Below are positions 44,110 to 60,055 of a DNA stretch of 64,000 nucleotides, one piece after another. Position 1 is the first letter of the stretch. Each line of letters begins with the position of its first letter. The stretch spans positions 1 through 64,000 of the forward strand of contig JAIXKI010000035.1 of NCBI GenBank assembly GCA_026936105.1. Reading direction: 5' to 3'. The position numbers and the translations under genes are program-made. Below the pieces are notes generated by a model. The model was not told the origin of the DNA and did not search any database. It saw only the letters and a program-made list of their open reading frames with translations. The DNA is from Chitinophagales bacterium (GTDB lineage Bacteria > Bacteroidota > Bacteroidia > Chitinophagales > Chitinophagaceae).

Positions 44110-45594
44110 TTATTTACCTGACAAAAGATGGATCACATCCGAACTTTTCAAAATAGATTCGGACAAGCTCCGTGTCAGGTTCAACATACTATCAGGATAT
44201 ATTCCCAGCCATATTATAATGATCACGATCACACTTAACACCAGCTTGCTGTTCCATTTGATGTCCTTTGCCTCCCGGGTAATCTGATTGTCATCTCCGT
44301 AAAACACTTTACGGATCATGTTTAAAATATAAACGGATACCAGGATGATGCTGATGGCAGCCAGGGCAGTAAATACAATATGATACCGGGTGCTATCTGA
44401 ACTGAAGATCCCATTGAACATCATGAATTCGCCGATAAACGCATTGGTCAGCGGCAGGGCCAGGTTCGCAAGCCCGACGATCACAGCAAACAAAGCCAAT
44501 GAAGGCGCTTTCTGTGCCAGACCACCCAACTCAGAGATTTTTCTGGTACCCGTTTGCCCTTCTATCATCTCCACCACGATCCACAATCCGAGTATGTTGA
44601 TCCCATGGTTGAACATCTGGATCATTACGCCCTGAAATCCGATTTCTGTTTCAGAAAAAATAGTGGCACACATTAAACCGATATGTGCTATGGAAGAGTA
44701 GGCCACGAATCGCTTCAGGTCATCCTGCCTGATGGCGATCAGGGATGCATACAAAATTCCTATGACGGCCAGAGAGGTCACCACATCTCCCCATTGGAAA
44801 GAAGCTATGGAAACAACAGGAAGCAACCAACGGAAACAGGCAAAGACACCCATCTTCACGATCACAGCGCTAAGTACCATAGTCGTTGGTGTGTTGGATT
44901 GTTCATACAGATCCGGTTGCCAGGTATGAAAAGGGAAAACAGGCATCTTAATGGCAAAAGCGAGGAACATCATCCAGAAAAGCCAGCTCTGTGTTTTTCC
45001 CGGAATCACTTTTCCCAATGAGTAAAAAGATTCAATACTGAAGGAATGATCTTTGGTCTGGGAAAACAAATAAATGATGGCCACCAGCATCAGCACTGAT
45101 CCAAGGAAAGTGTAAATGAAAAACCTGAAAGTGGCCCGCACTCTTTTTTCCCCTCCCCACATGGAGCTAAGAAAATAGATCGGCACCAATGCCAGCTCCC
45201 AGAAGAAATAAAAGAGCAAAGCATCCATGGCCACAAACACACCCATCAATCCGGCCTGCTCCAGCATCATCAATCCGAAAAAGTTTCCGGCTTTGTGATA
45301 TTCATTTTTCCAGGTGGAAATGAAAATGGCAGGATAAGAAATGGCAGTAAGCAGGCAAAGTATCTGGCCCATGCCATCTACCTTAACGGCAAAACTGCTG
45401 CCGAGAAAACTGAGCCATCCGTGGGAATATTGTAAAAATTTATTGTCATTCAGAAAAGTCAAACCCGACACCGCAACAGCAAGAGTGATCAATGAAGAAA
45501 ACAAGGCAAACGACTTTGCTGTTTTTTCATTTTTGAAAAAGAATAAAGCCAATCCGCTGATCAAAGGGATCAATATGAATAAAACCGGGATCAT
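44110..45594 (-). CDS. nuoM: NADH-quinone oxidoreductase subunit M
   Basis: The 494-residue subunit has the proton_antipo_M motifs DALLFYFFWELALVPIYFLS, KMPVFPFHTWQPDLYEQSNTPTT, and RQDDLKRFVAYSSIAHIGLM with the conserved acidic and lysine residues of a proton channel. A GAGGAG Shine-Dalgarno-like site precedes the start by 9 bp. It follows nuoL after a 122-bp spacer that contains an RNA hairpin. Confidence 0.97.
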   Translation of the reverse strand: MIPVLFILIPLISGLALFFFKNEKTAKSFALFSSLITLAVAVSGLTFLNDNKFLQYSHGWLSFLGSSFAVKVDGMGQILCLLTAISYPAIFISTWKNEYHKAGNFFGLMMLEQAGLMGVFVAMDALLFYFFWELALVPIYFLSSMWGGEKRVRATFRFFIYTFLGSVLMLVAIIYLFSQTKDHSFSIESFYSLGKVIPGKTQSWLFWMMFLAFAIKMPVFPFHTWQPDLYEQSNTPTTMVLSAVIVKMGVFACFRWLLPVVSIASFQWGDVVTSLAVIGILYASLIAIRQDDLKRFVAYSSIAHIGLMCATIFSETEIGFQGVMIQMFNHGINILGLWIVVEMIEGQTGTRKISELGGLAQKAPSLALFAVIVGLANLALPLTNAFIGEFMMFNGIFSSDSTRYHIVFTALAAISIILVSVYILNMIRKVFYGDDNQITREAKDIKWNSKLVLSVIVIIIIWLGIYPDSMLNLTRSLSESILKSSDVIHLLSGK

Positions 45595-45680
45595 GTTCTC
45601 TTTCTCCTCAATTGTGATAAAAAGACAATTTGCGGAGTTCTGAAATTTTACTTTTTAAAAAAATATCTTTCTATAAACCG

Positions 45681-45713
45681 GCTGCCGGATCTTCCATGAA
45701 AAACCGGAACAGC
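45681..45713 (-). other. GC-rich hairpin in the nuoL-nuoM spacer
   Basis: On the minus-strand transcript GCTG-tt-CCGG (45713-45704) can pair with CCGGCAGC (45688-45681), giving an 8-bp stem with a 2-nt bulge and a 15-nt loop, 4 bp after the nuoL stop. No T run follows, so it is not a typical terminator. Confidence 0.45.
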
Positions 45714-45716
45714 TTT

Positions 45717-47603
45717 TTATTTTCTCAGGAAAAACTGGACCACAAAGATCAATAGCATGCTCAGCACCATCAGCAACACATAACCCGTCACCTGCCCGCT
45801 TTGCAACAGTCGGATCTGCCTGCTGCCGTAATTCACCAGCCTGCCCACACCATTCACTAATCCATCAACCACAGAACGGTCAAAAACATTTTTCAAAAAA
45901 TCTCCAAAGCGGCTCAGCGGGTTGACGATCACATTGTCATACAATTCATCCACATACCATTTATTTTCAAGGAATTTGCCAATCCCTTTTTCTTCCACCT
46001 GTTGATATTTTCTGAAACGCAACCACGCCATCACGATCACAACAATAACCAATACGGCAGTAAGGACCATCAGTATTATTTCTGTTGAATGGGAAACCGC
46101 TCCCTCTCTGAATACCGGAACGACCGGCGATAAAAATTCAGAAAGTTTATCTCCTCCGGTTGCAAACACTTCAGGAATGCCGATAAACCCTCCCGCAAAT
46201 GAAAGAATTGCAAGAACGATCAACGACAGGGTCATAGTTGCAGGCCCTTCGTGCAAATGGTCTTTTTGTTCCTGCGTTCCCCTGAATGAACCATTGAAAG
46301 TAAGGAACAATAAACGGAACATATAATAAGCGGTCAGCAATGCGCCGAATAATGCGAGCACGTATAACACTTTATTGTGTTCAAATGCGCTCAGTAAAAT
46401 AGCATCTTTTGAAAAGAATCCTGAAAACGGAGGAATACCGGAGATAGCCAGACATCCGACAACGAAAGTAATATAGGTTATCTTCAGTTTCCCTTTCAAT
46501 CCTCCCATCTTACGGATGTCCTGTTCTCCTCCCATGGCATGGATCACACTGCCGGCGGCAAGGAATAACAATGCTTTGAAGAAAGCATGCGTCATCACAT
46601 GGAAAATTCCGGCCGTGTAAGCGCCAAGTCCCAATGCAAGAAAAATATATCCCAGCTGGCTCACCGTTGAGTAGGCCAATACTTTTTTGATATCGTTTTG
46701 TTTTAAAGCGATTGTTGCTGCAAGAATTGCCGTGGCCAGTCCTGTAATGGCCACTACGTTTTGAGTGACCGGCGCCAGAGAATACAAAGCTTCACTCCGG
46801 GTGATCATGTAAATACCTGCATTCACCATCGTTGCCGCATGGATCAATGCCGAAACCGGAGTGGGGCCGGCCATCGCATCGGGCAGCCATGTGTATAAAG
46901 GTATCTGCGCACTTTTTGCTGTGGCGCCAAAAAATAATAAAAGAGTGATAATGGTAATGTCGGAACTGTCAAGCAACGGGCCTTTTGAAAATACCACATC
47001 AAAATTGAGGCTTCCTGTTTTTGAAAAGATCCAGAACAAAGCGAGCAGAAAAGCAAGATCACCGATACGGTTCATGATGAATGCCTTGTTTGCCGCTTTG
47101 CTGAACTCCGTGTTCTTGAACCAATATCCGATCAGTAAATAAGAACATAGCGCCACTCCTTCCCATCCCAGGTACATGATGACATAGTTGGCACCCATCA
47201 CCAGCAGCAACATGGAAAAGACAAAAAGGTTCAGGTAAGAGAAATATCTTCCGTAATGCTCCCGGGTCTCTTCTTTCATGTAAGAGGTGGAATACACATG
47301 AATGATGAAGCCTATGCCGGTAATGATAAGTAGGAATAAAGAAGAAAGAGCATCTATCTGAAAAGCAAAAGGCACTTTTAAAGAACCGGCAGAGATCAGG
47401 TTGAAATATTCTGCCACATGGCTGTTGCCGCCCTTGACCTGCAGGAACACCCATATACTCAGAACAAAAGAGGCCAGCACTGTGGTACATGCAATAATGG
47501 CGATCAGTGATTTTGAAAGCTGCTTACGGAACAGCCCATTGATAAGAAATCCTATCAATGGAAGAAAAGGGATCAGCCAAACTATTTGCAATACATTTTG
47601 CAT
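45717..47603 (-). CDS. nuoL: NADH-quinone oxidoreductase subunit L
   Basis: The 628-residue subunit is the largest antiporter-like protein of complex I. Its N-terminal helices precede the core (MYLGWEGVALCSYLLIGYW, SAQIPLYTWLPDAMAGPTPVSALIHAATMV, KQNDIKKVLAYSTVSQLGYI). The C-terminal part holds the long lateral helix (KYQQVEEKGIGKFLENKWYVDELYD) and a final transmembrane segment. It is 9 bp downstream of nuoK. Confidence 0.98.
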   Translation of the reverse strand: MQNVLQIVWLIPFLPLIGFLINGLFRKQLSKSLIAIIACTTVLASFVLSIWVFLQVKGGNSHVAEYFNLISAGSLKVPFAFQIDALSSLFLLIITGIGFIIHVYSTSYMKEETREHYGRYFSYLNLFVFSMLLLVMGANYVIMYLGWEGVALCSYLLIGYWFKNTEFSKAANKAFIMNRIGDLAFLLALFWIFSKTGSLNFDVVFSKGPLLDSSDITIITLLLFFGATAKSAQIPLYTWLPDAMAGPTPVSALIHAATMVNAGIYMITRSEALYSLAPVTQNVVAITGLATAILAATIALKQNDIKKVLAYSTVSQLGYIFLALGLGAYTAGIFHVMTHAFFKALLFLAAGSVIHAMGGEQDIRKMGGLKGKLKITYITFVVGCLAISGIPPFSGFFSKDAILLSAFEHNKVLYVLALFGALLTAYYMFRLLFLTFNGSFRGTQEQKDHLHEGPATMTLSLIVLAILSFAGGFIGIPEVFATGGDKLSEFLSPVVPVFREGAVSHSTEIILMVLTAVLVIVVIVMAWLRFRKYQQVEEKGIGKFLENKWYVDELYDNVIVNPLSRFGDFLKNVFDRSVVDGLVNGVGRLVNYGSRQIRLLQSGQVTGYVLLMVLSMLLIFVVQFFLRK

Positions 47604-47612
47604 ACCGCCTCT

Positions 47613-47942
47613 CTAATGCTTTAACCTGTTTAAAAAATTCACATTCACCGAATGAACATTACGGAATAACATGACGATGATCGCCAACCCCACACTCACT
47701 TCTGCCGCAGCCACCACCATGATGAAAAAGACAAATAACTGCCCGTCAATCCCAACATTTGCCAGCCCGGCAGCCTGATTGGCATGGTGCATTTTTGAAA
47801 AAGCCACCAGCAATAGGTTCACAGCATTCAGCATGATCTCTATGCACATGAAAAAAACGATCGCATTCCTGCGCACCAGGACTCCGACAATACCGATGGC
47901 GAACAAAGCCAATGAAAGGAATATGTAATAATTGACCGGCAT
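47613..47942 (-). CDS. nuoK: NADH-quinone oxidoreductase subunit K
   Basis: The 109-residue protein has three transmembrane helices and conserved glutamates in the family motif [20 protein letters not shown] and in [15 protein letters not shown]. It is the usual MrpC-like partner of complex I's proton path. It lies between nuoJ (56 bp) and nuoL (9 bp). Confidence 0.97.
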
Positions 47943-47998
47943 AAGTCTTTATGATTTTTCCCGGAGGAAATTCTTTATTTCAAAACTCTTTTTTTACT

Positions 47999-48529
47999 CT
48001 AAGCACTTTCTTTCTCAGATCTGAATGACGATTCTTTCTTACCCAGCACAACCGCTCCCACCATGGCACTTAAAAACAATACGCTGCTTATCTCGAATGG
48101 AATCACATAATCCGTGAACAATGCTTTTCCCAGGTTTTCGATCAGCCCAATATCGCCCGTTCCCATTACAGCCATTGAAGATTTGGTTTCAGCGCTCTTC
48201 AACGCTGCCACCAACACCAGTAGCAGGCATCCCCCTGCCAGCACCCCGGCAATATTCAACCATTTATTTCTTTTAGGTTCACTACTCTTGTGAAGGTTCA
48301 TCAGCATGATCACAAAAAGGAACAACACCATGATGGCCCCTGCATAAACGATGATATTGACAATGGCGAGGAATTGCGCATTCAGCAGAAGATAATGACC
48401 GGAAATGGCAAAGAATACAACAATCAGCCAAAGAACGCTATACACAGGGTTCCTGCTGGCGATCACCATCACTGCGCTGAACAATGCCAGCGCTGAAAGA
48501 AACCAAAACAAAATCTGTGTTATTCCCAT
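47999..48529 (-). CDS. nuoJ: NADH-quinone oxidoreductase subunit J
   Basis: The 176-residue membrane protein has five predicted helices and the family region NPVYSVLWLIVVFFAISGHYLLLNAQFLAIVNIIVYAGAIMVLFLFVIMLMNL, broken here as LNAQFLAIVNIIVYAGAIMV for the conserved turn. It is part of the quinone-to-channel link of complex I. It follows nuoI by 21 bp. Confidence 0.95.
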   Translation of the reverse strand: MGITQILFWFLSALALFSAVMVIASRNPVYSVLWLIVVFFAISGHYLLLNAQFLAIVNIIVYAGAIMVLFLFVIMLMNLHKSSEPKRNKWLNIAGVLAGGCLLLVLVAALKSAETKSSMAVMGTGDIGLIENLGKALFTDYVIPFEISSVLFLSAMVGAVVLGKKESSFRSEKESA

Positions 48530-48550
48530 TTTCTTATAAACAGTCTTGTT

Positions 48551-49105
48551 CTATACTTTACTAATAACTTTTACCGGCCTGTCTCCTAATGCTTTTTTAT
48601 AAGCTTCGGGTTCAGTAAGCGGGTTGGGTATCAGCATATCTTCTTTTTTATAAATAAATCCTTTTCTCGAATAGTTGGAAGGAGCGAATGTCTGCGATAA
48701 ATAGATCGCATCTTTGGGGCAGGCCTCTTCACACAAACCGCAGAATATGCAGCGAAGCATATTGATCTCATATTTCGCAGCATATTTTTCTTCCCGGTAC
48801 AAATGTTCTTCACCGGGTAACCGCTCTGCTGCTTCCATAGTAATGGCTTCTGCGGGGCAGGCCACAGCACAAAGACCGCAGGCAGTGCAGCGTTCCCTGC
48901 CTTCTTCATCACGGTTCAATACATGCAGACCGCGGAATACCGAAGAAAAAGACCTTTTCTGTTCCGGGAAATTGATCGTTGCCTTTCTTTTGAACAAATG
49001 CCGCAAAGTGATCAACATCCCTTTCAGAATATTCCAGAAATATAACCGCTCGATCCAGGTCATTGGATGCCGGTCCACGTGTTTTGCTCTCTGAGTTAAC
49101 TGCAT
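48551..49105 (-). CDS. nuoI: NADH-quinone oxidoreductase subunit I (ferredoxin-type)
   Basis: From the ATG at 49105 the 184-residue protein has two [4Fe-4S] motifs, CTACGLCAVACP and CIFCGLCEEACP, that bind clusters N6a and N6b and pass electrons toward NuoB. An in-frame GTG at 49132 would add nine residues; the ATG (MQLTQRAKHVD) is preferred. It follows nuoH after a 89-bp spacer without clear features. Confidence 0.95.
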   Translation of the reverse strand: MQLTQRAKHVDRHPMTWIERLYFWNILKGMLITLRHLFKRKATINFPEQKRSFSSVFRGLHVLNRDEEGRERCTACGLCAVACPAEAITMEAAERLPGEEHLYREEKYAAKYEINMLRCIFCGLCEEACPKDAIYLSQTFAPSNYSRKGFIYKKEDMLIPNPLTEPEAYKKALGDRPVKVISKV

Positions 49106-49194
49106 ACTTACACTATTTCTTTCACTGATCACTGTCTCAAAACGGCTGCAAAGAAATTGATTTTTTTATAATAAACAACCTCTGTCAGCGATCT

Positions 49195-50250
49195 TCAATT
49201 TAATTTCTTCAATATCAGCATGACTACTGCTGTCAGCACCATATTAGCCAACGACAGCGGTATCAACCCTTTCCATCCGAGGTTCATCAACTGATCATAA
49301 CGGAAACGCGGGATCGTCCAGCGGATCCAGATGAACACGAACAGAAAGAAAAATATTTTAGCCATCAAAACGGCGAATCCGATCAATGCCAGTAAATTCG
49401 GCGAGATACCCCAGCTTGCTTCATTGACAAAAGGGATATCATACCCCCCGAAAAACAGAGTGGCCATCACCGCACTGCTGATGAACATGTTGATGTATTC
49501 GGCAAATAAATAAAAGCCCAGCTTCATCGAAGAATATTCCTGGTGATAACCAAAATTCAATTCATTCTCTGCTTCTGCCAGGTCGAAAGGTGTGCGGTTG
49601 CATTCTGCCAGGGCACAAATAAAGAAAATGACAAAGCCTAAAGGCTGATAGATCACATGCCATCCGTGGTCTATCTGATTCTGAACGATCACACTCATCT
49701 GCAAGGAACCTGCCAGCATCAGCACGGCAATTAGCGCCAAGCCCATTGCCAATTCATAAGAGATCATCTGTGATGCAGCACGGATGGCAGCCAATAAAGA
49801 AAATTTATTGTTGGAAGCCCAGCCTCCTATCATGATGCCATATACACCCAGGCTCACCACGCCGAAGATGTAGAGAATACCAATATTGACATCGGCGATC
49901 TGAAGCGGCATTTCTCTTCCGAAAAGATGTATTGATGTTCCCCAGGGTATCACGGCACTGGTCAGCAAAGCAGTGATCATGGCAAGTGAAGGACCCAGGA
50001 TGAACAGAAATTTGGAAGACACCAGGGGAATAATCTCTTCCTTAAAGAATAGTTTTCCTCCATCGGCCAAAGGCTGAAGGATGCCCCAGGGTCCTGCCCT
50101 GTTGGGGCCCCGGCGGTCCTGAAGCCAGGCAGCCACTTTTCTTTCCGCATAGGTAGTGTACATGGCAATGACAAGTGACAATGAAATGATCACCATGATC
50201 AACACCAGTTTTTCGAGAAGGAACCACCAATCAATAGATAATAAATGCAT
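49195..50250 (-). CDS. nuoH: NADH-quinone oxidoreductase subunit H
   Basis: The 351-residue membrane protein forms the quinone entry tunnel. It has about eight helices and the conserved cytoplasmic loops TYAERKVAAWLQDRRGPNRAG and ECNRTPFDLAEAENELNFGY, plus IRWTIPRFRYDQLMNLGWK near the end. It is 11 bp downstream of nuoG. Confidence 0.98.
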   Translation of the reverse strand: MHLLSIDWWFLLEKLVLIMVIISLSLVIAMYTTYAERKVAAWLQDRRGPNRAGPWGILQPLADGGKLFFKEEIIPLVSSKFLFILGPSLAMITALLTSAVIPWGTSIHLFGREMPLQIADVNIGILYIFGVVSLGVYGIMIGGWASNNKFSLLAAIRAASQMISYELAMGLALIAVLMLAGSLQMSVIVQNQIDHGWHVIYQPLGFVIFFICALAECNRTPFDLAEAENELNFGYHQEYSSMKLGFYLFAEYINMFISSAVMATLFFGGYDIPFVNEASWGISPNLLALIGFAVLMAKIFFFLFVFIWIRWTIPRFRYDQLMNLGWKGLIPLSLANMVLTAVVMLILKKLN

Positions 50251-50261
50251 TTTCGCTTTTA

Positions 50262-51350
50262 TTAAGAATCTTTCTTTTCAAATGTTTTTGATGTCGCCGG
50301 GCCATTGATAGCACTCAGATCAATATCCGGGTCATTCACACCACTCACATCATGAATATTCATCAGCATCTTCGGATCCCGTCCGCCCATCACTTCCGGT
50401 AAAAAGTCTTTAGGCTTTTTCAAGCCATAATATTTGTTTACCGAAATCACCGAATGACGGCTCATCTTAGCCGGGCCCTCAATTATCCAGTCACTTACTT
50501 TCTTTTTATCATAGCGGCATTCGTTGCAGATCCAATCATGCACTTCGCCCCATTGGTCTTTTCTTCCTGTCACCCGGAACACTTCATCGCCTCTCATCCA
50601 CAGATGAACTTTTCCGGCACATTTAGAACATTCCCTGTGTGCATCCATAGGCCTGGTGAACCATACACGGTTTTTGAAACGGAATGTTTTATCCGTCAAA
50701 GCACCCACCGGGCAAACATCTATCATATTTCCTGAAAAATCATTGTCTATGGCTTTGGAGATATAGGTGGAGATTCTGGAACGGTCGCCACGATCCAACA
50801 CACCATGCAGCCTTTCCTCAGTCAATTGATCGGCAACATAAGTACAGCGGTAACACATGATGCAGCGGTTCATGTGCAACTGAATATGCGGCCCGATATC
50901 TTCAGGTTCAAACGTTCTTTTTACAAACTCAAATCTTGATTTATCATCACCATGGCCATAACTCAGATCCTGAAGATTACATTCTCCGGCCTGGTCGCAT
51001 ACAGGGCAATCCAATGGATGATTGATAAGTAAGAACTCCACAACACCATCTCTTGCTTCCAGCACCTGCTGATTGGTAATATTTTCAACAACCATTCCAT
51101 CCATTACGGCCGTTCTGCAACTGGCAACCAGTTTGGGTACAGGCCTCGGATCTGCCGCAGATCCCTGTGCCACTTTCACCAGGCAGGTGCGGCATTTACC
51201 GCCGCTGTCTTTTAATGTAGAATAATAACACATGGCAGGAGGCACAATGTCCCCGCCGATCTTCCGTGCAGCCTGCAGGATCGTTGTGCCCGGCTCCACT
51301 TCAGTCGTGATGTTATCAATGGTTACTTTAAAAAATTTCTGTTCTGACAT
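50262..51350 (-). CDS. nuoG: NADH-quinone oxidoreductase subunit G, short form
   Basis: The 362-residue protein has the N-terminal [2Fe-2S] domain (PPAMCYYSTLKDSGGKCRTC), the His-Cys3 motif HPLDCPVCDQAGEC for N5, CIMCYRCTYVAD plus CPVGAL for N4, and a C-terminal remnant of the molybdopterin-Fe4S4 domain with CSKC and CNEC pairs. The large molybdopterin-like domain of E. coli NuoG (about 900 residues) is absent. From memory this short form is usual in Bacteroidota. An AGGAG-like site lies 11 bp before the start. It is separated from nuoF by a 478-bp spacer holding the four-helix-bundle cassette. Confidence 0.93.
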   Translation of the reverse strand: MSEQKFFKVTIDNITTEVEPGTTILQAARKIGGDIVPPAMCYYSTLKDSGGKCRTCLVKVAQGSAADPRPVPKLVASCRTAVMDGMVVENITNQQVLEARDGVVEFLLINHPLDCPVCDQAGECNLQDLSYGHGDDKSRFEFVKRTFEPEDIGPHIQLHMNRCIMCYRCTYVADQLTEERLHGVLDRGDRSRISTYISKAIDNDFSGNMIDVCPVGALTDKTFRFKNRVWFTRPMDAHRECSKCAGKVHLWMRGDEVFRVTGRKDQWGEVHDWICNECRYDKKKVSDWIIEGPAKMSRHSVISVNKYYGLKKPKDFLPEVMGGRDPKMLMNIHDVSGVNDPDIDLSAINGPATSKTFEKKDS

Positions 51351-51394
51351 AAGTTATTTTAACTCCTCAAACAGGAGGTTTAAAAATAAAGTCA

Positions 51395-51411
51395 AAAGTA
51401 AAAAGTCAAAA
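51395..51411 (+). repeat. Left terminal inverted repeat of the cassette (17 bp)
   Basis: AAAGTAAAAAGTCAAAA, a perfect inverted match to 51809-51825. Confidence 0.85.
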
Positions 51412-51413
51412 AT

Positions 51414-51809
51414 CTAAACATCCTTTCCTGAATTAATAATAACCCTTGCTATGATGTTTGAGATCTGTTCAGCTTTATTTAACAGTTTTGCTATTCTTTC
51501 TTTGTTCAAATCCAATGTGCGCCTTATCAGGCAAAGTCAATACTTTGTTTCGCTTGCAGATTTTAAGGATATCACCAGAAATTTTTCCCAATCTTTTCGT
51601 GAACTTCCCGCCCTGCCTTTCACCATATTTGCACCGATCGACGTCGCACTTCTGATCAGCTGATCAAATAAAGAACTATAAACTTTATCGCACTTACTCT
51701 CTTTTACGAATAACACTACCTCTTTAGCGAAATAATAACACCTATGCCTGATATTATAAGGTTTGTCGCCTTCCTGAAATTCAAAAGCCTCCAATTCATT
51801 TTTCTTCAT
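51414..51809 (-). pseudogene. Four-helix-bundle protein (S23/IVP-like, TIGR02436 type) with in-frame TGA
   Basis: Translation from the ATG at 51809 gives 90 residues ending at ASETKY, then TGA (51539-51537), then 40 more in-frame residues, LCLIRRTLDLNKERIAKLLN and onward, to TAG at 51416-51414. Read through, the product would be 131 residues with the family's usual features: YYFAKEVVLFVKES, LFDQLIRSATSIGANMVKGR, SRKDWEKFL. At the TGA, relatives commonly have Trp (ETxYWL), so TGG to TGA is the simplest history. A truncated 90-residue protein, lacking the fourth helix, is the alternative. The family's role is unclear. Confidence 0.75.
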
Positions 51810-51825
51810 TTTGACTTTTTACTTT
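51809..51825 (-). repeat. Right terminal inverted repeat of the cassette (17 bp)
   Basis: Reverse complement of AAAGTAAAAAGTCAAAA; it includes the first base of the pseudogene's start codon and ends 3 bp from the nuoF stop codon. Confidence 0.85.
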
Positions 51826-51828
51826 CAA

Positions 51829-53181
51829 TCAAACTCCGGCCTTTAGTGGCTCGGCATACCCCGCCAATCCGTAATTCCTTCTTTGTGCTTCCTCGGGATG
51901 AGTGACATGCCATTCAAATTCATCCCTGAAATGCCTGATGGCCGCTGCCACCGGCCAGGCTGCTGCATCACCCAAAGGACAGATCGTGTTGCCTTCAATA
52001 TTTCCCTGAACACTCCACAAGAGGTCAATGTCTTTCATCTTCCCTTTTCCATGTTCCAGATTCCATAATATCTTTTCCATCCAGAATGTCCCTTCGCGGC
52101 AAGGCGAACATTGCCCGCAACTTTCATGACGGTAAAACCGGGAAAATGAATAGGTGTTTCTAACAATGCACTGATCCTCGTCATACACAATGAATCCTCC
52201 GCTGCCTAACATACTGCCGGTTTGAAAACCTCCGTCAGATAGGCTCTCATAAGTCATCATTCTCGTTTCGCCTTTTGCAGTCTTCAGTAAAAGATAAGCA
52301 GGCAAAACAGGAACTGATGAACCTCCCGGTACACAGGCTTTCAACCTTTTTCCGTTAGCGATCCCTCCGCAATATTCATCACTGTAAATAAATTCTTCTA
52401 CAGAAATATTCATCTCAATCTCATACACACCCGGCTTATTGATATTGCCGCAGGCTGAGATCAGTTTAGTTCCGGTTGATTTCCCCGTTCCGTACTTTGC
52501 ATATTCATCGCCGCCCATATTGATGATCGGGACAACCGTAGAAAGTGTTTCCACATTATTCACTACAGTTGGACAACCATACAAACCTTTTACTGCAGGG
52601 AATGGCGGTTTGATCCTCGGATTTCCTCTTTTGCCTTCCAGCGATTCCAGCAGTGCTGTTTCTTCTCCGCATATATAAGCGCCGGCGCCGGGATGAACAT
52701 AGACCTCGCAATCGAACCCGCTACCTAAAATATTTTTTCCCAGCCAACCGTTATTTTTTGCTTCGGCAATGGCCTGTTCCAGGATATCCACGATCCATCC
52801 GAACTCGCCGCGGATGTAGATGTATGTCCGGTTGCTCCCTACTGCATAAGATGAAACGATCAGCCCCTCAATCAGCAAATGAGGAATGTGCTCCATCAGG
52901 TAGCGGTCTTTGAAAGTTCCCGGTTCGCTTTCATCTGCGTTGCAAACGAGGTAACGGGGTACTCCTTCCGGTTTTGCCAGAAAGCCCCATTTCATTCCTG
53001 TAGGAAATCCGGCACCGCCTCTTCCTCTCAGGCCGCTTTTCTTCACTTCATTGGTCACATCATCAGGACTCATTGTTTTCAATACTTTCTCCACTGATGA
53101 ATAACCACCGTTCTTCCGGTACACATCATAACTACGGATCCCTACGATCCCGACCTTATCCAATAAAAGTTTTCTGCCCAT
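51829..53181 (-). CDS. nuoF: NADH-quinone oxidoreductase subunit F
   Basis: The 450-residue subunit binds FMN and NADH (GLRGRGGAGFPTGMKWGF, then GAYICGEETALLESLEG) and has an SLBB domain and a C-terminal [4Fe-4S] N3 motif SCGQCSPCREG plus a fourth cysteine in NTICPLGDAAAWP. It takes electrons from NADH. It follows nuoE by 29 bp. The nuoF-nuoG spacer carries the cassette described separately. Confidence 0.98.
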   Translation of the reverse strand: MGRKLLLDKVGIVGIRSYDVYRKNGGYSSVEKVLKTMSPDDVTNEVKKSGLRGRGGAGFPTGMKWGFLAKPEGVPRYLVCNADESEPGTFKDRYLMEHIPHLLIEGLIVSSYAVGSNRTYIYIRGEFGWIVDILEQAIAEAKNNGWLGKNILGSGFDCEVYVHPGAGAYICGEETALLESLEGKRGNPRIKPPFPAVKGLYGCPTVVNNVETLSTVVPIINMGGDEYAKYGTGKSTGTKLISACGNINKPGVYEIEMNISVEEFIYSDEYCGGIANGKRLKACVPGGSSVPVLPAYLLLKTAKGETRMMTYESLSDGGFQTGSMLGSGGFIVYDEDQCIVRNTYSFSRFYRHESCGQCSPCREGTFWMEKILWNLEHGKGKMKDIDLLWSVQGNIEGNTICPLGDAAAWPVAAAIRHFRDEFEWHVTHPEEAQRRNYGLAGYAEPLKAGV

Positions 53182-53210
53182 GTTCCTTTCCCCGTTCGTT
53201 ATTCTTCTTT

Positions 53211-53711
53211 TTAATTATTTATGGCGGCACTTCTTCTGCACTCCTCAATGATCTCATCTACTTTTTCTTTGGTCAGATGTTCTTTATAACCTTTTCCCAT
53301 CTGCATCATGGGCGCATAGCCGCAGGCGCCCAGACACTCTGCTGTTTTTAAAGTAAACAAACCATCGGGAGTGGTCTCTCCCGGCTTTATTCCCAATCTT
53401 TCTCCGATATATTTTATGATGTCATCACTTCCTCTTGTAATGCAGGGGCCGGTCTGGCACACTTCAAAAACATATTTACCCACCGGTTTCAGATTGTACA
53501 TGCTGTAAAAAGTAGCCACTTCATACACTTCGATCGTCAGAAGTCCAAGCAATGACGCCACATAATCCATCGTTTCGGGGCTGAGCCATCCTCCGAATTC
53601 CTGCTGTGCCAGATGTAAAACAGGAAGCAAAGCGCTTTTCTGCTTCCCTTCGGGATAGCGTGCAATGATCTTCTCAACCTGTTTTAATTTCTCTTCAGAA
53701 AATTGTATCAT
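53211..53711 (-). CDS. nuoE: NADH-quinone oxidoreductase subunit E
   Basis: From the ATG at 53711 the 166-residue thioredoxin-fold protein has the [2Fe-2S] N1a ligands in CQTGPC and CLGACGYAP. An in-frame TTG at 53729 would start inside the AAAGTCAAAA repeat and is unlikely. It precedes nuoF by 29 bp. Confidence 0.95.
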   Translation of the reverse strand: MIQFSEEKLKQVEKIIARYPEGKQKSALLPVLHLAQQEFGGWLSPETMDYVASLLGLLTIEVYEVATFYSMYNLKPVGKYVFEVCQTGPCITRGSDDIIKYIGERLGIKPGETTPDGLFTLKTAECLGACGYAPMMQMGKGYKEHLTKEKVDEIIEECRRSAAINN

Positions 53712-53720
53712 ATCAATTTT

Positions 53721-53752
53721 AAAAGTCAAAAATCAAAATGCAAAAGTCAAAA
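53721..53752. repeat. Direct repeats AAAAGTCAAAA in the nuoD-nuoE spacer
   Basis: Two exact copies of AAAAGTCAAAA at 53721-53731 and 53742-53752, 21 bp apart. The same core word forms the ends of the cassette at 51395-51825. Confidence 0.7.
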
Positions 53753-53779
53753 GCATTATTGATTTTCTGTTTTTAATAT

Positions 53780-55003
53780 TTAAGCATCCATTTCTCCCGC
53801 TATCAGGTTCAGGCTACTCATGGTAATGATCGCATCACTCAGCATACTTCCTTTGATCAGTTCTTCAAAAGCCTGGTAATAAATAAAACAAGGCCTCCGG
53901 AAATGCAACCGGTAAGGGGTTCTGCCTCCGTCACTGATCAGATAGAATCCCAATTCCCCGTTTCCTGCTTCCACTGAATGATATACTTCACCCACCGGCA
54001 TATTGATCTCTCCCATGATGATTTTGAAATGCCAGATCATAGGTTCCATCCTGGTATATACCAGCTCTTTCGGCGGCAGATAGTATTCAGGAGCATCCGC
54101 GTGATACACTTCTGCCTCTGCTCCTTTAAATTCCTGAACTTTTTGATATGCCTGCTCAATGATGCGGAGACTTTGCCACATTTCCTGGTTGCGCACCAGC
54201 CAGCGGTCATAATTATCACCGGTAGTGCCCACAGGAATGGAGAAATCAAAATCTTCGTAGCTGCTGTACGGAGCATGAACCCTGACATCATAATCCACCC
54301 CGGCGGCACGGAGGTTCGGGCCGGTGAAACCGTAATTCAGCGCCCTTTCCGCACTGATAGCACCGGTACCCATAGTACGCTCCATAAAAATGCGGTTGCG
54401 CTGAAAAAGGTTTTCAAATTCTTTCAATACTCCCGGATATTCTTTGAGAAATTTTTCCAGTTTCTGAAAGGCAATGTCATTGAAGTTTCGTTCAAACCCT
54501 CCTATTCTTCCGATGTTGGTGGTCAACCGTGCCCCACAAACCTCTTCATAAATTTCATAGATCAGTTCCCGATATTGCATCACATACAAAAAACCGGTAT
54601 AAGCACCTGCATCCACACCAACGATAGAATTGCAAATAAGATGATCGGAAATTCTGGCCAGCTCCATAATGATCACCCGCAGATAGTCCACACGTTTGGG
54701 AATTTTTAATCCCAAAAGTTTTTCGCAGGTCATGTGCCAGCCCATATTGTTGAGCGGAGGAGAACAGTAATTCAAACGGTCAGTCAGCGGAGTGATCTGG
54801 TATAACGTTCTCCGCTCTGCTATCTTTTCAAAGGCCCGGTGAATATAACCCACTGTCTGCTCGGCGGAAACAACTCGCTCACCGTCCAGCTCCAGGATAT
54901 TCTGAAATACACCATGTGTAGCCGGATGCGTAGGCCCCAGGTTCAACGTAGTCGTTGTTTTTTCAATGCTTCCTTCCGGTAATTTTATATGTTGTTCCGT
55001 CAT
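53780..55003 (-). CDS. nuoD: NADH-quinone oxidoreductase subunit D
   Basis: The 407-residue 49-kDa-type subunit helps form the quinone-binding site. Recognisable blocks are LNLGPTHPATHGVFQNILELDGE, GYIHRAFEKIAERRTL, RVIIMELARISDHL, RAAGVDYDVRVHAPYS and the C-terminal GGRTPYRLHFRRPCF, ending DAIITMSSLNLIAGEMDA. NuoC and NuoD are separate genes here, not fused. It is 60 bp downstream of nuoC. Confidence 0.98.
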   Translation of the reverse strand: MTEQHIKLPEGSIEKTTTTLNLGPTHPATHGVFQNILELDGERVVSAEQTVGYIHRAFEKIAERRTLYQITPLTDRLNYCSPPLNNMGWHMTCEKLLGLKIPKRVDYLRVIIMELARISDHLICNSIVGVDAGAYTGFLYVMQYRELIYEIYEEVCGARLTTNIGRIGGFERNFNDIAFQKLEKFLKEYPGVLKEFENLFQRNRIFMERTMGTGAISAERALNYGFTGPNLRAAGVDYDVRVHAPYSSYEDFDFSIPVGTTGDNYDRWLVRNQEMWQSLRIIEQAYQKVQEFKGAEAEVYHADAPEYYLPPKELVYTRMEPMIWHFKIIMGEINMPVGEVYHSVEAGNGELGFYLISDGGRTPYRLHFRRPCFIYYQAFEELIKGSMLSDAIITMSSLNLIAGEMDA

Positions 55004-55063
55004 GATTTCTTCAAACTACTCCGTATATAGCGGAGGCTTTAGAATATTTCGGTTAATAAAAAT

Positions 55064-55567
55064 TTATTCTCTCCCGAACATCTCATCATCTTTATCAATT
55101 CTTGCCTGATCTTCCAACGGGTATTCTTTTCTCAACGGGAAATAATCCATTTCTTCCACATTCAATATCCTCTTCATATTCGGATGGCCGGTAAATTTCA
55201 CGCCATAAAAATCATAGGTTTCCCTTTCCATCCAGTTGGCAGCAGAAAACAGTCCTGTTGCTGTATAAACATCAGGCTTCTCTATATCTGTAAACACTTT
55301 GAAACGCACCCGGATATTATCCTGCATGTTGTGCAAATGATATACTACCGCTAATTCCCTCCCCTTCTGATCGGGGTAATGCACGGCACAGATATCGGTC
55401 AGAAAGCGGAACTTCAACCGCTCATCATCATATAAAAAATTAAGCACCTTTAGATTCATTTCTTTGGGTGCTTCAAAAGTGAGGAGCCCATAAGGCTCTC
55501 CAAAATTTGTAACCTGCTCCGCAAACTTTTCGACCAGTTTCTGTTTTACTATTTCGTTTGTCAACAT
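55064..55567 (-). CDS. nuoC: NADH-quinone oxidoreductase subunit C
   Basis: The 167-residue 30-kDa-type subunit has the conserved LTDICAVHYPDQKGRELAVVYHL and ERETYDFYGVKFTGHPNMKRIL with YPLEDQ at the C-terminus. It stabilises the peripheral arm. It is a stand-alone protein, followed 60 bp later by nuoD. Confidence 0.96.
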   Translation of the reverse strand: MLTNEIVKQKLVEKFAEQVTNFGEPYGLLTFEAPKEMNLKVLNFLYDDERLKFRFLTDICAVHYPDQKGRELAVVYHLHNMQDNIRVRFKVFTDIEKPDVYTATGLFSAANWMERETYDFYGVKFTGHPNMKRILNVEEMDYFPLRKEYPLEDQARIDKDDEMFGRE

Positions 55568-55576
55568 TTTTAAACC

Positions 55577-55630
55577 GTTTGATTATCCGGTGGCTTAACT
55601 TTTATCAATCCAACAATTAAACCATCAAAC
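55577..55630 (-). repeat. Inverted repeat in the nuoB-nuoC spacer
   Basis: GTTTGAT (55577-55583) and ATCAAAC (55624-55630) are perfect inverted copies around a 40-bp loop. The intervening sequence contains AACAATTAAACCATCAAACC, a low-complexity word type seen in Bacteroidota spacers. Confidence 0.45.
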
Positions 55631-55638
55631 CATCCTGC

Positions 55639-56223
55639 CTATTGAATTCCATAACTCTCCAGCAACTTCTTATACTTTTCGGTGTGCCTTCTTCTTAAAC
55701 TTTCTTTTCCTACCAGGTCCTGTATTCTCATGAAGCCATCCAAAATAGCTTCGGGCCTTGGTGCACAACCCGGGACATATACATCCACGGGAATGATCTG
55801 GTCTATTCCCTGCAATACACTGTAGGTATCAAATATCCCTCCGCTGCTGGCACAGGCGCCTACAGCAATAACCCATCTTGGTTCGGCCATCTGCAAATAA
55901 ACCTGTTTTACCACGGGCCCCATTTTTTTGGCAATGGTCCCCATGATCATCAACAGGTCGCATTGGCGCGGAGAAAAGCCAACCCGCTCTGCGCCGAATC
56001 TTCCAAGATCGTAGTGAGCACCCATTGTGGCCATGAACTCGATACCGCAACAAGAAGTGGCAAACGGTAAAGGCCAGATAGAATTTTTTCTTGCCAGACC
56101 GATCACTTTATCAAAAGAGGTGGCGAAGAAGCCTTCGCCCATATGGCCTTCAGGCATTTCCGCCATACTGATATCGGATTCCAGCGGTTTTACTTTTACA
56201 TTGTATGATACAGGACGCGGCAT
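55639..56223 (-). CDS. nuoB: NADH-quinone oxidoreductase subunit B
   Basis: From the ATG at 56223 the 194-residue protein carries the N2 [4Fe-4S] ligands: the adjacent cysteines in ATSCCGIEFMA, then Cys in VGACASSGG and VPGCAPRPEA. It passes electrons to quinone. A TTG six codons upstream gives a frame that starts inside the AAAGTCAAAATTC repeat and is rejected as a start. Confidence 0.97.
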   Translation of the reverse strand: MPRPVSYNVKVKPLESDISMAEMPEGHMGEGFFATSFDKVIGLARKNSIWPLPFATSCCGIEFMATMGAHYDLGRFGAERVGFSPRQCDLLMIMGTIAKKMGPVVKQVYLQMAEPRWVIAVGACASSGGIFDTYSVLQGIDQIIPVDVYVPGCAPRPEAILDGFMRIQDLVGKESLRRRHTEKYKKLLESYGIQ

Positions 56224-56239
56224 AAAAAAGTTTAAAGTC

Positions 56240-56285
56240 AAAATTCAAAAGCCATTACCATTTTTCATTTTCACTTTTGAATTTT
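56240..56285 (-). repeat. AT-rich inverted repeat before nuoB
   Basis: AAAATTCAAAAG (56240-56251) and CTTTTGAATTTT (56274-56285) pair over 12 bp with a 22-nt loop. AAAGTCAAAA begins at 56234. On the minus strand the hairpin is followed by TTTAAACTTTTTT directly before the nuoB ATG. Confidence 0.6.
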
Positions 56286-56300
56286 TTAATTTTGAATTTG

Positions 56301-56711
56301 TCACTCTTCCCACTTTAAGGCTCCTTTTTTAATGATGTAGATAAATCCGCAAAGGAAAAAACCTACAAAAAGAAGCACAGCCCAAAAACCACTCCATCCC
56401 AGGCCTTTAAAATTCACGGCATAGGGATAAAAGAATATCACTTCCACATCAAACAAAACAAATAATATGGCTACCAGGAAATATTTTATAGCTACAGGCT
56501 GACGGGCATCGCCATGACTTTCAATTCCGCTGGTAAAACTCTGAAGTTTATCTGCCGTTTTTCTTTTGGGACCTAGAAGATGTGTTACCAGCATCAGAAG
56601 AGCCACCAAACCTACGGCACATACAATCTGAATTCCTATGGGCAGATAACTGGCAGCCTCACTTACATCTGCGACTTTTTTAGATAATTCTTCCTGAAGA
56701 AGGTAGATCAT
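56301..56711 (-). CDS. nuoA: NADH-quinone oxidoreductase subunit A
   Basis: From the ATG at 56711 the 136-residue protein has three transmembrane helices and the conserved loop TSGIESHGDARQPVAIKYFLVAILFVLFDVEVIFFYPYAV, of which the segment ILFVLFDVEVIFFYP holds the key acidic residues. It is the first nuo gene. Upstream, the 56712-56794 region holds its promoter, with a weak TAATTTCG -7-like box near 56735-56742, before the terminator of the preceding operon. Confidence 0.96.
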   Translation of the reverse strand: MIYLLQEELSKKVADVSEAASYLPIGIQIVCAVGLVALLMLVTHLLGPKRKTADKLQSFTSGIESHGDARQPVAIKYFLVAILFVLFDVEVIFFYPYAVNFKGLGWSGFWAVLLFVGFFLCGFIYIIKKGALKWEE

Positions 56712-56794
56712 AAGCCCTTTCAAATGAGTTGCGAAATTAAGGGTGTAACATCAAAAAACCGAAGAAATTATCTCAAGATTCTACTGATAAATAT

Positions 56795-56834
56795 CAAAAA
56801 AAAAATCCTCCGTGTCTGTAAAGGAGGATTTTTT
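56795..56834 (-). terminator. Intrinsic terminator after the TPR gene
   Basis: AATCCTCC (56804-56811) and GGAGGATT (56823-56830) form a perfect 8-bp stem with an 11-nt loop; on the minus strand it is followed by ten T. It separates the TPR operon from the nuo operon. Confidence 0.9.
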
Positions 56835-56861
56835 AAGAATATATTCCTGTTCAGGAGGAAT

Positions 56862-58589
56862 TCACTGCCTCGTTCCATTCGGTGCAGATTTGTTCAGAGC
56901 AGTACCACCGGTTGCACTTTTAGGATTTGAGGGAGGTTGCTTTTTCAGTGTATTTTCCAGCTGAATTTTAATATCATTCAGGTTAGCATTAGATGGATCC
57001 ACTTCCAGCATTTTATTAATATAATCAAGGGCTGATGCGGCGTCTTTTGCATCATTTGCATAATAGGTAGCTAAAAATCCTGCACTATTCAGATATTGGC
57101 TTTTATACTTAGCTGTGTCCTTTTGTGCAAATTGAAAAAGTTTTATTGCATCAGGAACTGCAATGCTGTCCTTTTTGGTAGAATCAATCACCCGGCTGTT
57201 ATTCCAGGCCATCTCATATCCATAAACCTCATCCGGATATTTCTTCTGTATGACTAAAAATATATTCCTTGAAGTGTCATACATGCCAGCCAGATAATAA
57301 GAGAGGCCCACGCTGAACATATCAAAGAGGGTGGGATTGGGCTTTATATCCACAATTGCCTGCTCCATCTTCGCTTCCTGCACATATTGCTTCTTAGCCT
57401 TGAATAAAGCAGCCCCTTTCTTCAGCATATCAATTTTTTCCTGAAGTATCGTATCTGCGCTGACAGCTTCCATAAAAGTTTTTACGACATCATCAGGACT
57501 CACTCCCGGAGTACCCGAATAAATATCGGCTTTCAGTACATAATCGGGAGGAACGATATTGTCTTTATCTTCTTTGGCAAAATATTCATCTATATATGTC
57601 TTGGCCTGTGCCGTATCTCCTTTTCCTTCATAAGAATAAGCCAGCAGCTTGTATGTTCTCGGCCTGGTCTTATCACCTGCCTTGCTGATGATTCCTTTTG
57701 CAACATTTATGGCCTCGTCATAATTTTTCTGAGCCCACAACGTCTGCGCTCTCAGGTAATCATTCTGAACATCCGGATCCGTGTTGGCAATAAATTTCTT
57801 TGCATATTCGTCTGCTTTGGTAAAATCAATTTTACCTGTCGCAGGATCGATCTTACCCAGATAATAATAATAGAGGTCATAATATGCAGGACCAAAGCCC
57901 GGGTCTTTTGCTACTGCCTGATCCAGGTTCTCAGTATATAATTCCCAGTTTTGCTGGGTTTCAAACAATTTAGCGATACGGTAATAAGCTATTGCGAAAT
58001 CCGGGTCCACTGCAATGGCCTGCTTATAATTCTGATAAGCCAATCCTCCATTCTCACCCGGCCTTGCCTTACGGTATGCATTACCCAGGTTCAGAAAAAT
58101 ATCAGGATTCTTAGAATCTCTTTTTGAAGCATCTTCTAATTTCTGAATGGCATAAGCCAGATCTCCTGATTTTGCATCAACATTGGCACGACCCACTGCA
58201 TTCAGAATATCCGGGTCATCGCCTTTTCTCTTATGCGTCATTGTGATCGCTGCTTCAAAGCGCTGGCGTGCATCTGCTGTTTTGTTTTCCAACAGTTCCA
58301 CATGGCCCATCCCTACGATCAGCAGAGGTGCATTAGCGCTTGCGGCCAGTGCTTTCTCGTATAACTGGCGTGCAGCAGGCACATCCTTCATGGCAATGTA
58401 TGTCTGGCCAAGCCAATATGTCGCTTCAATATTATTGGGATTTACTTCCAATAACTTATCAAATACAGCTTTGGCACTCTGGTATCTTTCCTCATACAGA
58501 AAGTTAATGCCATTCTGGATCGTTTGGGCCTTTAAAGCGCCGGCGAAAAACACCATCACACTTAAGCAGGTAATTAGAATTTTCTTCAT
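56862..58589 (-). CDS. Tetratricopeptide repeat protein, exported
   Basis: The 575-residue protein has a signal peptide (about 1-21) and many TPR units (for example YQSAKAVFDKLLEVNPNNIEATYWLGQ, VPAARQLYEKALAAS, DAASALDYINKMLEVDPSNANLND) with a Lys/Gln/Pro-rich tail. TPR proteins are scaffolds for protein complexes. It follows a PstS-like lipoprotein after 44 bp and probably works with it and the TonB system in the envelope. No enzymatic motif is seen. Confidence 0.88.
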   Translation of the reverse strand: MKKILITCLSVMVFFAGALKAQTIQNGINFLYEERYQSAKAVFDKLLEVNPNNIEATYWLGQTYIAMKDVPAARQLYEKALAASANAPLLIVGMGHVELLENKTADARQRFEAAITMTHKRKGDDPDILNAVGRANVDAKSGDLAYAIQKLEDASKRDSKNPDIFLNLGNAYRKARPGENGGLAYQNYKQAIAVDPDFAIAYYRIAKLFETQQNWELYTENLDQAVAKDPGFGPAYYDLYYYYLGKIDPATGKIDFTKADEYAKKFIANTDPDVQNDYLRAQTLWAQKNYDEAINVAKGIISKAGDKTRPRTYKLLAYSYEGKGDTAQAKTYIDEYFAKEDKDNIVPPDYVLKADIYSGTPGVSPDDVVKTFMEAVSADTILQEKIDMLKKGAALFKAKKQYVQEAKMEQAIVDIKPNPTLFDMFSVGLSYYLAGMYDTSRNIFLVIQKKYPDEVYGYEMAWNNSRVIDSTKKDSIAVPDAIKLFQFAQKDTAKYKSQYLNSAGFLATYYANDAKDAASALDYINKMLEVDPSNANLNDIKIQLENTLKKQPPSNPKSATGGTALNKSAPNGTRQ

Positions 58590-58633
58590 ATTTCAATTTG
58601 CGTTTTTAAAAGGTGTAAATATAATTGTTTTGT

Positions 58634-59575
58634 TTACTCATTCAAACGGGCAGCTCTAATTGAAAAATCAAGTTTTGCCGGCACCAGATAAGCTCTTTTA
58701 AATATCAACTGTCCTTTTTCTCCACTTAAGAAATTCGCAAAACCGTGCCCAAGTCCCCTGTAATTTTCTTTTAAGATATAAGTAACATCACGGATCATAG
58801 GATAGCGGTGCAGATAAATATTCGCCTGAACCGGCAAAATATAATTTCCAGGTATATCTGTACTCTCAAGTTGTGCCATTTTAACTTTTCTTAAAAAACT
58901 GTTCTGCATGGTATCTTCTCTGTTTCCTACCCAACTGACGCCAATAAAGCCGATTGCGTTGGCATTTTTCGAAATATAATCTATAACTCCCGGGCTTGAC
59001 TGAGCTGCCATTGCTTTGGGAGTTAAAGACTGACCATGTAAAACAGAATCAATGACAAACCTTATGGTACTGGTCTCCTTTGTATTGTCAAATACCGGCA
59101 CCAGGTCCTTCGTATAAGTACCTGTCAGTATCTGCCTGATCTCATCCATGGAAAAGAGCGAATCTGTCATACGCGGATTAATGATCACAGCTATGGCATC
59201 ATAAGCTACCACCATTTTTTCGGGTGCCAGATTCATTGAGTCCACCATAAAATTCTCCTCAGGCTTAGTGTATCCCCGGGTGACAATGATCATACGTACA
59301 CTATCCACTGCCATATCCTTCAAACACTCAGCCTCAGGTTTATAGTTGACAATGATCCGGGTATCGGGATGCTGTGATTCATACACCTGTACCTCTGAAT
59401 CAATGATCGGCTTAAACGACTCATCTGCACTCACATAAATAGTACCCCTGTCAGGAGTGTCTTTTAATTTAGCTTGCTGCTCATCATAGGATTCACATCC
59501 CGAAAATGAAACCTGCAGCAGAAATAACAGCGAAAAGAACAATGCTGTATGTCTGCGGATCATGACCTTTTTCAT
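58634..59575 (-). CDS. PstS-like substrate-binding lipoprotein
   Basis: The 313-residue protein has a lipoprotein signal with lipobox FSGC (Cys27) and a type-II periplasmic-binding fold of the PBP_like/PstS kind (GTIYVSADESFKPIIDSEVQ, AIAVIINPRMTDSLFSMDEIRQILTG, GVIDYISKNANAIGFIGVSWVG). No phosphate permease genes are nearby, so it may bind another anion or play a structural role. In Bacteroidota this family is often next to exbBD-tonB and a TPR gene. Its start overlaps the small membrane gene by 4 bp (ATGA). Confidence 0.88.
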   Translation of the reverse strand: MKKVMIRRHTALFFSLLFLLQVSFSGCESYDEQQAKLKDTPDRGTIYVSADESFKPIIDSEVQVYESQHPDTRIIVNYKPEAECLKDMAVDSVRMIIVTRGYTKPEENFMVDSMNLAPEKMVVAYDAIAVIINPRMTDSLFSMDEIRQILTGTYTKDLVPVFDNTKETSTIRFVIDSVLHGQSLTPKAMAAQSSPGVIDYISKNANAIGFIGVSWVGNREDTMQNSFLRKVKMAQLESTDIPGNYILPVQANIYLHRYPMIRDVTYILKENYRGLGHGFANFLSGEKGQLIFKRAYLVPAKLDFSIRAARLNE

Positions 59576-59817: not shown

Positions 59818-59899
59818 TTTTTCGAGGCTGGCAATTTATAACATTTTGTTGACTATTATACCTCAAACTGTATAAACGCCAATGCTTTTTTATCAGGTT

Positions 59900-59939: not shown

Positions 59940-60055
59940 AATTACATGGCTCACTAATGAGATGCAGTCAACAAATGATTCCATAAGTGCTATTACGTAA
60001 CAAATAATTTCCCCGAACAACTGTAAATTCTTTAATTTATCAGAACTTTGACGAC

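Follow-up and report, generated by a model that had tools for sequence, protein, structure and literature searches.

An S23-family cassette between inverted arrays of 7 bp units at the nuoF–nuoG junction of a Chitinophagales genome

The closest described counterpart of the cassette is the intervening sequence (IVS) in the 23S rRNA gene of Coxiella burnetii, which in the account of PMC4990558 carries an S23p open reading frame (ORF), has a 28 bp terminal stem that is cut by RNase III in vitro and shows tandem heptamers beside the S23p start codon. S23/IVP is presented there as an orphan family from fragmented rRNA, without known function. The cassette resembles this IVS, as portrayed in that source, in its S23-family ORF, its length of about 430 nt, its terminal inverted repeats, the 7 bp repeats at the start codon and the decay of the ORF; it differs in lying in a protein operon, in its other heptamer and in being known from sequence alone. 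Insertions in the rRNA genes of CPR bacteria, some with a 23S_rRNA_IVP domain, place an S23-family ORF at sites also used by other ORF families, as here; they differ in their location in rRNA genes and, as described in PMC11270868, in that the recognised domains are mostly homing endonucleases. PF05635 resembles Avd of diversity-generating retroelements (DGRs) in both sequence and structure according to PMC10053308. Unlike the setting of Avd in DGRs, no reverse transcriptase match was found on contig C14, which holds the window (the whole stretch of 64,000 nt that was analysed); four RVT_1 (PF00078) matches lie elsewhere in the genome (G000:C9:365414, C33:16268, C29:44794 and C36:39340).

In REPtrons a RAYT transposase gene is flanked by inverted REPs, and the REP sequence is common genome-wide. 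The likeness to the cassette is a single resident gene between inverted short repeats; the differences are the genome-wide REP and the nature of the protein as a transposase. Intergenic TAACTGA arrays are described in Beggiatoaceae (PMC4679880) and heptanucleotide elements in Geobacter, where members of the class MTYCTGA are depicted in pairs, one on each strand (PMC2700814). These are also intergenic tandem 7 bp units and have Bacteroidetes among their hosts, but in the accounts of PMC4679880 and PMC2700814 they consist of few fixed heptamers per genome and are not associated with S23 genes. No report linking S23 or GxxExxY genes to 7 bp arms outside rRNA turned up in a literature search, which covered an open-access library with few subscription papers or preprints.

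Contig C14 is part of a 3.6 Mb draft genome (G000, the own genome below), for which the nearest named relatives found were Sphingobacteriales MAGs, e.g. UTBCD1. The gene order on the minus strand is nuoF, S23 cassette, nuoG, which agrees with the position given in the first-pass annotation. The features are as follows.

50262–51350, minus strand: nuoG, short form of 362 aa, the downstream neighbour
51388–51411, no strand assigned (coding strand minus): 3′ arm of the cassette, a 7 bp array of AAAGTCA in 3.4 copies with the inverted-repeat core at 51395–51411
51414–51809, minus strand: S23/IVP four-helix-bundle frame of 131 codons plus TAG, with an in-frame TGA at 51537–51539; apparent relic
51809–51825, no strand assigned: 5′ arm of the cassette, inverted-repeat core AAAGTAAAAAGTCAAAA on the minus strand, overlapping the A of the start codon
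51829–53181, minus strand: nuoF, the upstream neighbour, with its stop 3 nt before the arm
53721–53753, no strand assigned: AAAAGTC-type 7 bp array without an ORF at the nuoD/nuoE junction, of the repeat type found in the cassette arms
56226–56251, no strand assigned: one arm of an inverted AAAAGTC-type pair that encloses no cargo, at the nuoA/nuoB junction
56267–56299, no strand assigned: the other arm of this cargo-less pair

The inverted repeat reported earlier is indeed perfect: 51395–51411 and 51809–51825 are complementary at 17/17 positions with 397 nt between them, and these ends are able to form a stem around the ORF, as is characteristic of 23S rRNA IVSs. One copy starts 2 bp past the last stop of the frame (TAG, 51416–51414) and the other reaches as far as the A of the start codon ATG at 51809, in line with the close fit described before. 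The additional outer AAAGTCAAAA was likewise found, and it extends the left arm to the 3.4-copy array at 51388–51411. The 17 bp pair is the core of two inverted arrays of 7 bp units around an S23/IVP frame. A location in a 23S rRNA gene was not found; Rfam gave no match at 45000–60000 (E up to 0.1). Taken alone, the 17 bp pair is suggestive and not unique, its inverted-flank score of 17 being the second highest among the 60 ORFs of the window (cassette counted; median 10.5, maximum 18). At locus L044, which has the same arms, the score of 17 compares with a mean of 9.2 in shuffles (sd 1.3, maximum 14, n = 200). The pair gains its weight from the 7 bp arrays and from recurrence at other loci.

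Assignment of the frame to the S23/IVP family was confirmed by matches to PF05635 (47.5 bits for the 90 aa open part and 70.5 bits when read through; curated cutoff 33.8) and to TIGR02436 (50.6 and 73.9 bits, respectively; cutoff 24). The ORF as annotated keeps this identity but not an unbroken frame, as the TGA leaves only 90 aa open. The sister species G002 has the same interrupting stop, and its nuo frame differs from that of G000 by 11 nonsynonymous and four synonymous changes (dN 0.048, dS 0.07). Owing to this near-neutral change and the in-frame TGA, the nuo S23 copy looks like a relic of which intact relatives exist. Other S23 pairs within the genus gave dN/dS values of about 0.03–0.27, based on few changes, and two pairs had no synonymous change. 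At the argD site, the three pairs of intact copies with dS < 1 gave dN/dS values of 0.07, 0.08 and 0.14, and judged by these ratios the intact copies there are evidently under constraint. The only solved structure matching S23 by sequence was one chain (2rld); for GxxExxY none was found by sequence at E up to 0.1.

Of 39 genomes, counting the own one, 29 yielded NuoG; the best 27 loci were examined, partly by eye. Five junctions hold an S23 frame, which is open in G006, has one stop in G000 and G002 and is more degraded in G001 and G010. At four others (G004, G012, G013 and G014) a GxxExxY-kind ORF lies between CGCAGAG-type inverted arms; two of these proteins were checked and both match PF13366 and TIGR04256. 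The G011 junction contains an array only, two junctions (L019 and L021, in G015 and G022) an unrelated ORF of about 280 aa and 11 a short spacer of 8 to about 100 nt with no insert, while in four cases the end of nuoF was not found within the fetched flank. Four further GxxExxY copies occupy the nuoF–nuoG junction in G044, G052, G057 and G073, and S23 is also present there in the named MAG loci L044, L045 and L046 (flanks judged by eye). The comparison of spacers proposed in the first-pass annotation thus yielded many bare junctions and some with other cargo. Together with nuo, two more insertion sites are used by both S23 and GxxExxY.

The proposal of a mobile unit is supported in part. Insertion into a protein-coding operon is supported by the bare junctions and alternative cargo in relatives and by the L004 site, where the own genome has a cassette that three congeners lack, but there is no sign of frequent hopping, and the S23 copies cluster by site. 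In a phylogeny of 109 S23 proteins, built on few columns and with many weak forks, 13 insertion sites (51 rows from other sites are not counted) were accounted for by 12 label changes, the minimum, versus 41.8 in shuffles; the nuo-site copies form one group. At the threshold used, 25 of the 294 genomes of the family contained an argD-site S23 ortholog; two of these orthologs (L266 and L270) lie elsewhere. With L266 included, identity between argD S23 proteins was correlated with that of the downstream gene (rho 0.36; 10/2000 permutations as high) and of the upstream gene (rho 0.22; 64/2000), and the flanking genes were correlated with each other (rho 0.15; 193/2000); co-inheritance of S23 with its argD flanks is thus only moderate, which speaks against the reading favoured below.

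Thirteen PF05635 matches were found in the own genome, and inspection by eye of these 13 copies showed that most have a private inverted repeat of ~7 bp. The expected recurrence of AAAGTAAAAAGTCAAAA near other four-helix-bundle ORFs was not observed among the other S23 genes inspected: most loci repeat the architecture with a different repeat sequence. An arm sequence serving as a motif common to S23 loci was accordingly rejected. The 24-mer of the left arm had 19 matches in the own genome at up to three mismatches versus one for the reversed control.

The arms were compared across 172 elements, comprising 13 from the own genome, 59 located loci and 100 chosen mostly, not strictly, from the tops of lists of the matches listed, sorted by E-value; because the picks favour low E-values among the matches listed, intact copies are over-represented. 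Fifteen named loci were found via short peptides of the nuo S23 and are for this reason its near relatives; one of them (L046) was too short to score. Eight nuo-site loci did not enter the arm statistics, and six of the 172 elements were dropped for their short flanks. For the remaining 166 elements (99 S23 and 67 GxxExxY) the upstream flank was scored against the reverse complement of the downstream flank. The median inverted score was 21 for own pairs, 10.5 for cross-locus pairs and 10.5 for cross pairs within the same genome. Own pairs exceeded the 95th cross-locus percentile in 133/166 cases and the 99th in 95/166, leaving 33 loci at or below the 95th percentile, and none of 2000 permutations gave a mean as high. 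When each family in the host family was measured against its own cross pairs, 75/99 S23 and 51/67 GxxExxY elements lay above the 95th percentile. Own pairs in the same orientation had a median of 12, with 34/166 above the 99th percentile. As a control, four of 325 ORFs in 20 random 20 kb stretches scored above 19.5, compared with 95 of the 166 elements.

PF05635 was present in 116 of the 148 genomes of a phylum survey, and 30 S23 loci outside the host family were scored in the same way: the own-pair value was 17.75 versus 10.5 for cross pairs, 20/30 lay above the 95th and 7/30 above the 99th percentile, and 0/2000 permutations reached the observed value. Beyond Bacteroidota 12 S23 loci were scored. 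In nine of them the inverted arms outscored every one of 200 shuffles, with a 7 bp step judged by eye (Ignavibacteria, three CPR lineages, a deltaproteobacterium, Saganbacteria, two Margulisbacteria and Phycisphaerae), and in L055, L057 and L058 the inverted arms did not score above shuffles. Arm sequence varies from locus to locus, but the two arms of any one locus match, and a weak code is common to the S23 arms.

The period of the arms follows the cargo. S23 flanks have an excess self-identity of 0.091, 0.067 and 0.042 at lags 7, 14 and 21, respectively, whereas GxxExxY flanks have no excess at these lags and a weak peak at lag 9 (0.031). Among arms above the 99th percentile, the best period for S23 (n = 56) was 7 in 33, 14 in ten, 8 in eight, another value in three and none in two; for GxxExxY (n = 39) it was 8 in ten, 9 in nine, 10 in three, 11 in two and none in 15. 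Lag-7 cores on both sides were found in 53/99 S23 and 0/67 GxxExxY elements, in 7/325 control ORFs and in 13/30 S23 loci of the phylum sample. A single period for every cargo was rejected, given the GxxExxY arms without 7-periodicity.

Alignment by phase of 171 S23 arm cores from 106 elements gave a heptad of A (0.62) or G (0.24), then G (0.87), then T (0.60), followed by four loose positions. The heptad score was 7.56 per arm against 5.26 in a null obtained by permuting positions within each arm (sd 0.34, maximum 5.83, n = 40). The G peak itself is barely above this null (1.16 versus 1.09 bits); the positions that do surpass it are the preceding purine and the following T. When strand flips were allowed, the other strand was preferred by 16/171 cores, and the inward strand had more G than C in 142/172. 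Agreement between the arms of an element, taken over the seven heptad positions, had frequencies of 0.89, 0.89, 0.71, 0.55, 0.68, 0.82 and 0.82 (66 elements), compared with 0.85, 0.49, 0.35, 0.30, 0.37, 0.32 and 0.62 for random pairing. S23 arms thus seem to follow a weak code, purine-G-(T)-NNNN, with the G strand inward.

The reading that we favour, with slightly better than an even chance of being right, is that the cassette is a decayed IVS-like resident consisting of an inward 7 bp array, an S23 gene and an inverted copy of the array, with arms that co-evolve as DNA and are recognised by S23. The cassette would be an old resident that seldom moves: inserted on rare occasions and then passed on at its site, it would be transcribed in sense, at the operon junction, through read-through from the host operon. 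Arm units would be gained and lost as DNA, by slippage in 7 bp steps, and copying of sequence between the two inverted arms would make the arms of a given copy drift jointly. The cargo protein (S23 with period 7, GxxExxY with longer periods) would recognise phased contacts in its own arms, keeping the period and polarity while the other bases wander. In the nuo copy the S23 gene would be dead and the arms would remain. Both the recognition of the arms by S23 and the copying between them are steps that we infer.

Orthologs at the argD site allow the two arms of one insertion to be followed. Their arms are AAGTNNT arrays of varying length, and an AAGT-to-ACGT variant is common to both arms (rho 0.74, n = 22, uncorrected for phylogeny; the variant is present upstream in five rows only and the downstream count includes background from the next gene). 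The value was 0.77 with L266 and 0.74 without it; L268, which is cut, was left out. Within the argD clade own arm pairs scored 22.1 and cross pairs 19.9 (6/5000 permutations, n = 22, uncorrected for phylogeny), and in the set of 24 rows including L270 and L266 the values were 22.2 and 19.2 (0/5000). Elsewhere, at several sites, the repeats differ visibly between members that belong to different genera.

An RNA-level element of the kind found in 23S rRNA, in which the arms pair in the polycistronic mRNA, RNase III cuts the stem, the cassette is removed or looped out at the nuoF–nuoG junction and selection on the stem keeps the arms complementary, is unlikely, although it keeps an appreciable chance; the RNA processing suggested in the first-pass annotation is unsupported. 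Its model is the Coxiella IVS with its S23p ORF, RNase III-cut stem and heptamers by the start codon (as given in PMC4990558), and the earlier statement that the ends could pair in the nuo mRNA agrees with the predicted transcript fold, in which the arms are paired; the z-score is only −2.05 and 3/100 shuffles fold equally well, so that by this prediction an RNA stem is possible. Orientation also speaks for an RNA-level role: S23 sites are co-directional with both neighbours in 43/50 cases and antisense to both in 2/50 (GxxExxY sites, 36/50 and 4/50), compared with 154/313 and 34/313 background triplets. This sense bias could reflect an RNA-level role invisible to the mismatch test. Arms held complementary by pairing in the sense transcript would be expected to show more G·U than A·C mismatches. 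The mismatches between arms are nevertheless balanced, with 270 of the G·U type and 272 of the A·C type (147/180 elements), 94 and 85 in core columns (133 elements) and 30 and 33 for the phylum loci. The stems of six tRNA genes from the fetched loci, by contrast, gave 13 and 0; cross-locus pairs gave 1269 and 1389, a slight G·U deficit. Selection of the arms as RNA stems was rejected, as there was no G·U excess over A·C in any of the three sets, and for the same reason RNA pairing does not appear to be what shapes the arms. In this the cassette class departs from the Coxiella picture drawn in PMC4990558, its arm mismatches having no RNA-pairing signature.

We consider it improbable, to about the same degree, that the arms are intergenic repeats made by a mutational process of the host, inside which small genes such as S23 are tolerated. 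Arms do exist without cargo. The AAAAGTC-type arrays at the nuoD/nuoE and nuoA/nuoB junctions have no S23 gene; they pair weakly, with shuffles scoring similarly for nuoD/nuoE and nearly so for nuoA/nuoB, and have fold z-scores of −1.98 and −1.09, respectively. A 400 kb stretch of G012 (L329; C2 1.0–1.4 Mb) contains 184 7 bp arrays versus 0 or 1 in shuffles, and 43 inverted array pairs bracket short intergenic stretches with a median interior of 80 nt, the G-rich strand pointing inward on both arms in 35/43. One 31-mer array type occurs 248 + 244 times in the G012 genome at up to three mismatches and the reversed pattern zero times. Since arms exist without S23, the protein may be a tenant rather than the maker, and S23 may do no more than live inside arms made by something else. 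A host process would, however, have to account for the lag-7 cores that flank more than half of the S23 elements on both sides and few control ORFs, and for a period that goes with the cargo (mostly 7 or 14 for S23; 8–11 or none for GxxExxY) despite common genomes and sites.

It is quite improbable that the cassette belongs to the classical DNA transposons or MITEs and that a transposase moves it by way of terminal inverted repeats. Such repeats are present, the G012 genome holds cargo-less pairs in high copy with common arm types, and presence and absence alternate between congeners: the L004 site measures about 490–510 nt in G000, which has an S23 cassette there, and 45–78 nt in the congeners G001, G002 and G003; in place of S23 these three have a compact, short AT-rich palindrome that may be an arms-only form. 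Against this, the terminal repeats differ between loci within one genome, the cassette has room for one short frame only, and visual inspection of two filled/empty sites showed no target-site duplication. A MITE family with a common interior was rejected for G012, where the interiors are mostly unrelated (five blastn hits, i.e. three sequence pairs, among 35 interiors). The L003 locus was discarded as an empty site, being bare in G003 but filled with other DNA in G001 and G002. No donor was found for the cassette.

Although the nuo pair by itself only ranks second in the window and S23 genes are co-inherited with their sites, an ordinary operon gene beside chance AT-rich repeats is highly improbable in the face of bare junctions and alternative cargo in relatives and of an own-versus-cross arm test that no permutation matched and that was repeated in the phylum sample.

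A wider form of the favoured reading is offered tentatively, and we would expect it to fail somewhat more often than to hold: S23 and GxxExxY proteins would be the dedicated partners of a large class of bacterial elements that end in phased repeat arrays (purine-G-(T)-NNNN heptads for S23, longer units for GxxExxY); the protein, or a process under its direction, would rewrite both inverted arms jointly as DNA and so give every locus private matched ends; rRNA IVSs would be a special case, and many S23 genes in cas, DGR-like and respiratory operons would be inserts and not functional parts. S23 genes in cas loci are reported among CRISPR–Cas-associated functions in PMC3936711, and PF05635 was the commonest domain in the DGR neighbourhood screen of PMC10053308. 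Part of this association may stem from insertion into operons, which is a warning against guilt by association for S23 genes in operons. Avd itself is a true part of DGRs. Locus-private matched arms, a phased code and a cargo-dependent period provide a handle on what S23 and GxxExxY might do to their own arms. The arms would also exemplify concerted evolution among bacterial inverted repeats, and the widespread class of S23 cassettes indicates that DNA around an old orphan protein family evolves by some unexplained rule.

Two minor observations are added. The highest inverted-flank score among the 60 window ORFs (18) belongs to the ORF at 13905–15558. GxxExxY arms (L088–L117 and L178–L217) often have, by eye, an outer end resembling (T)AACCAC or ACCGC, followed by CACAGAG, CGCAAAG or AGGATT.
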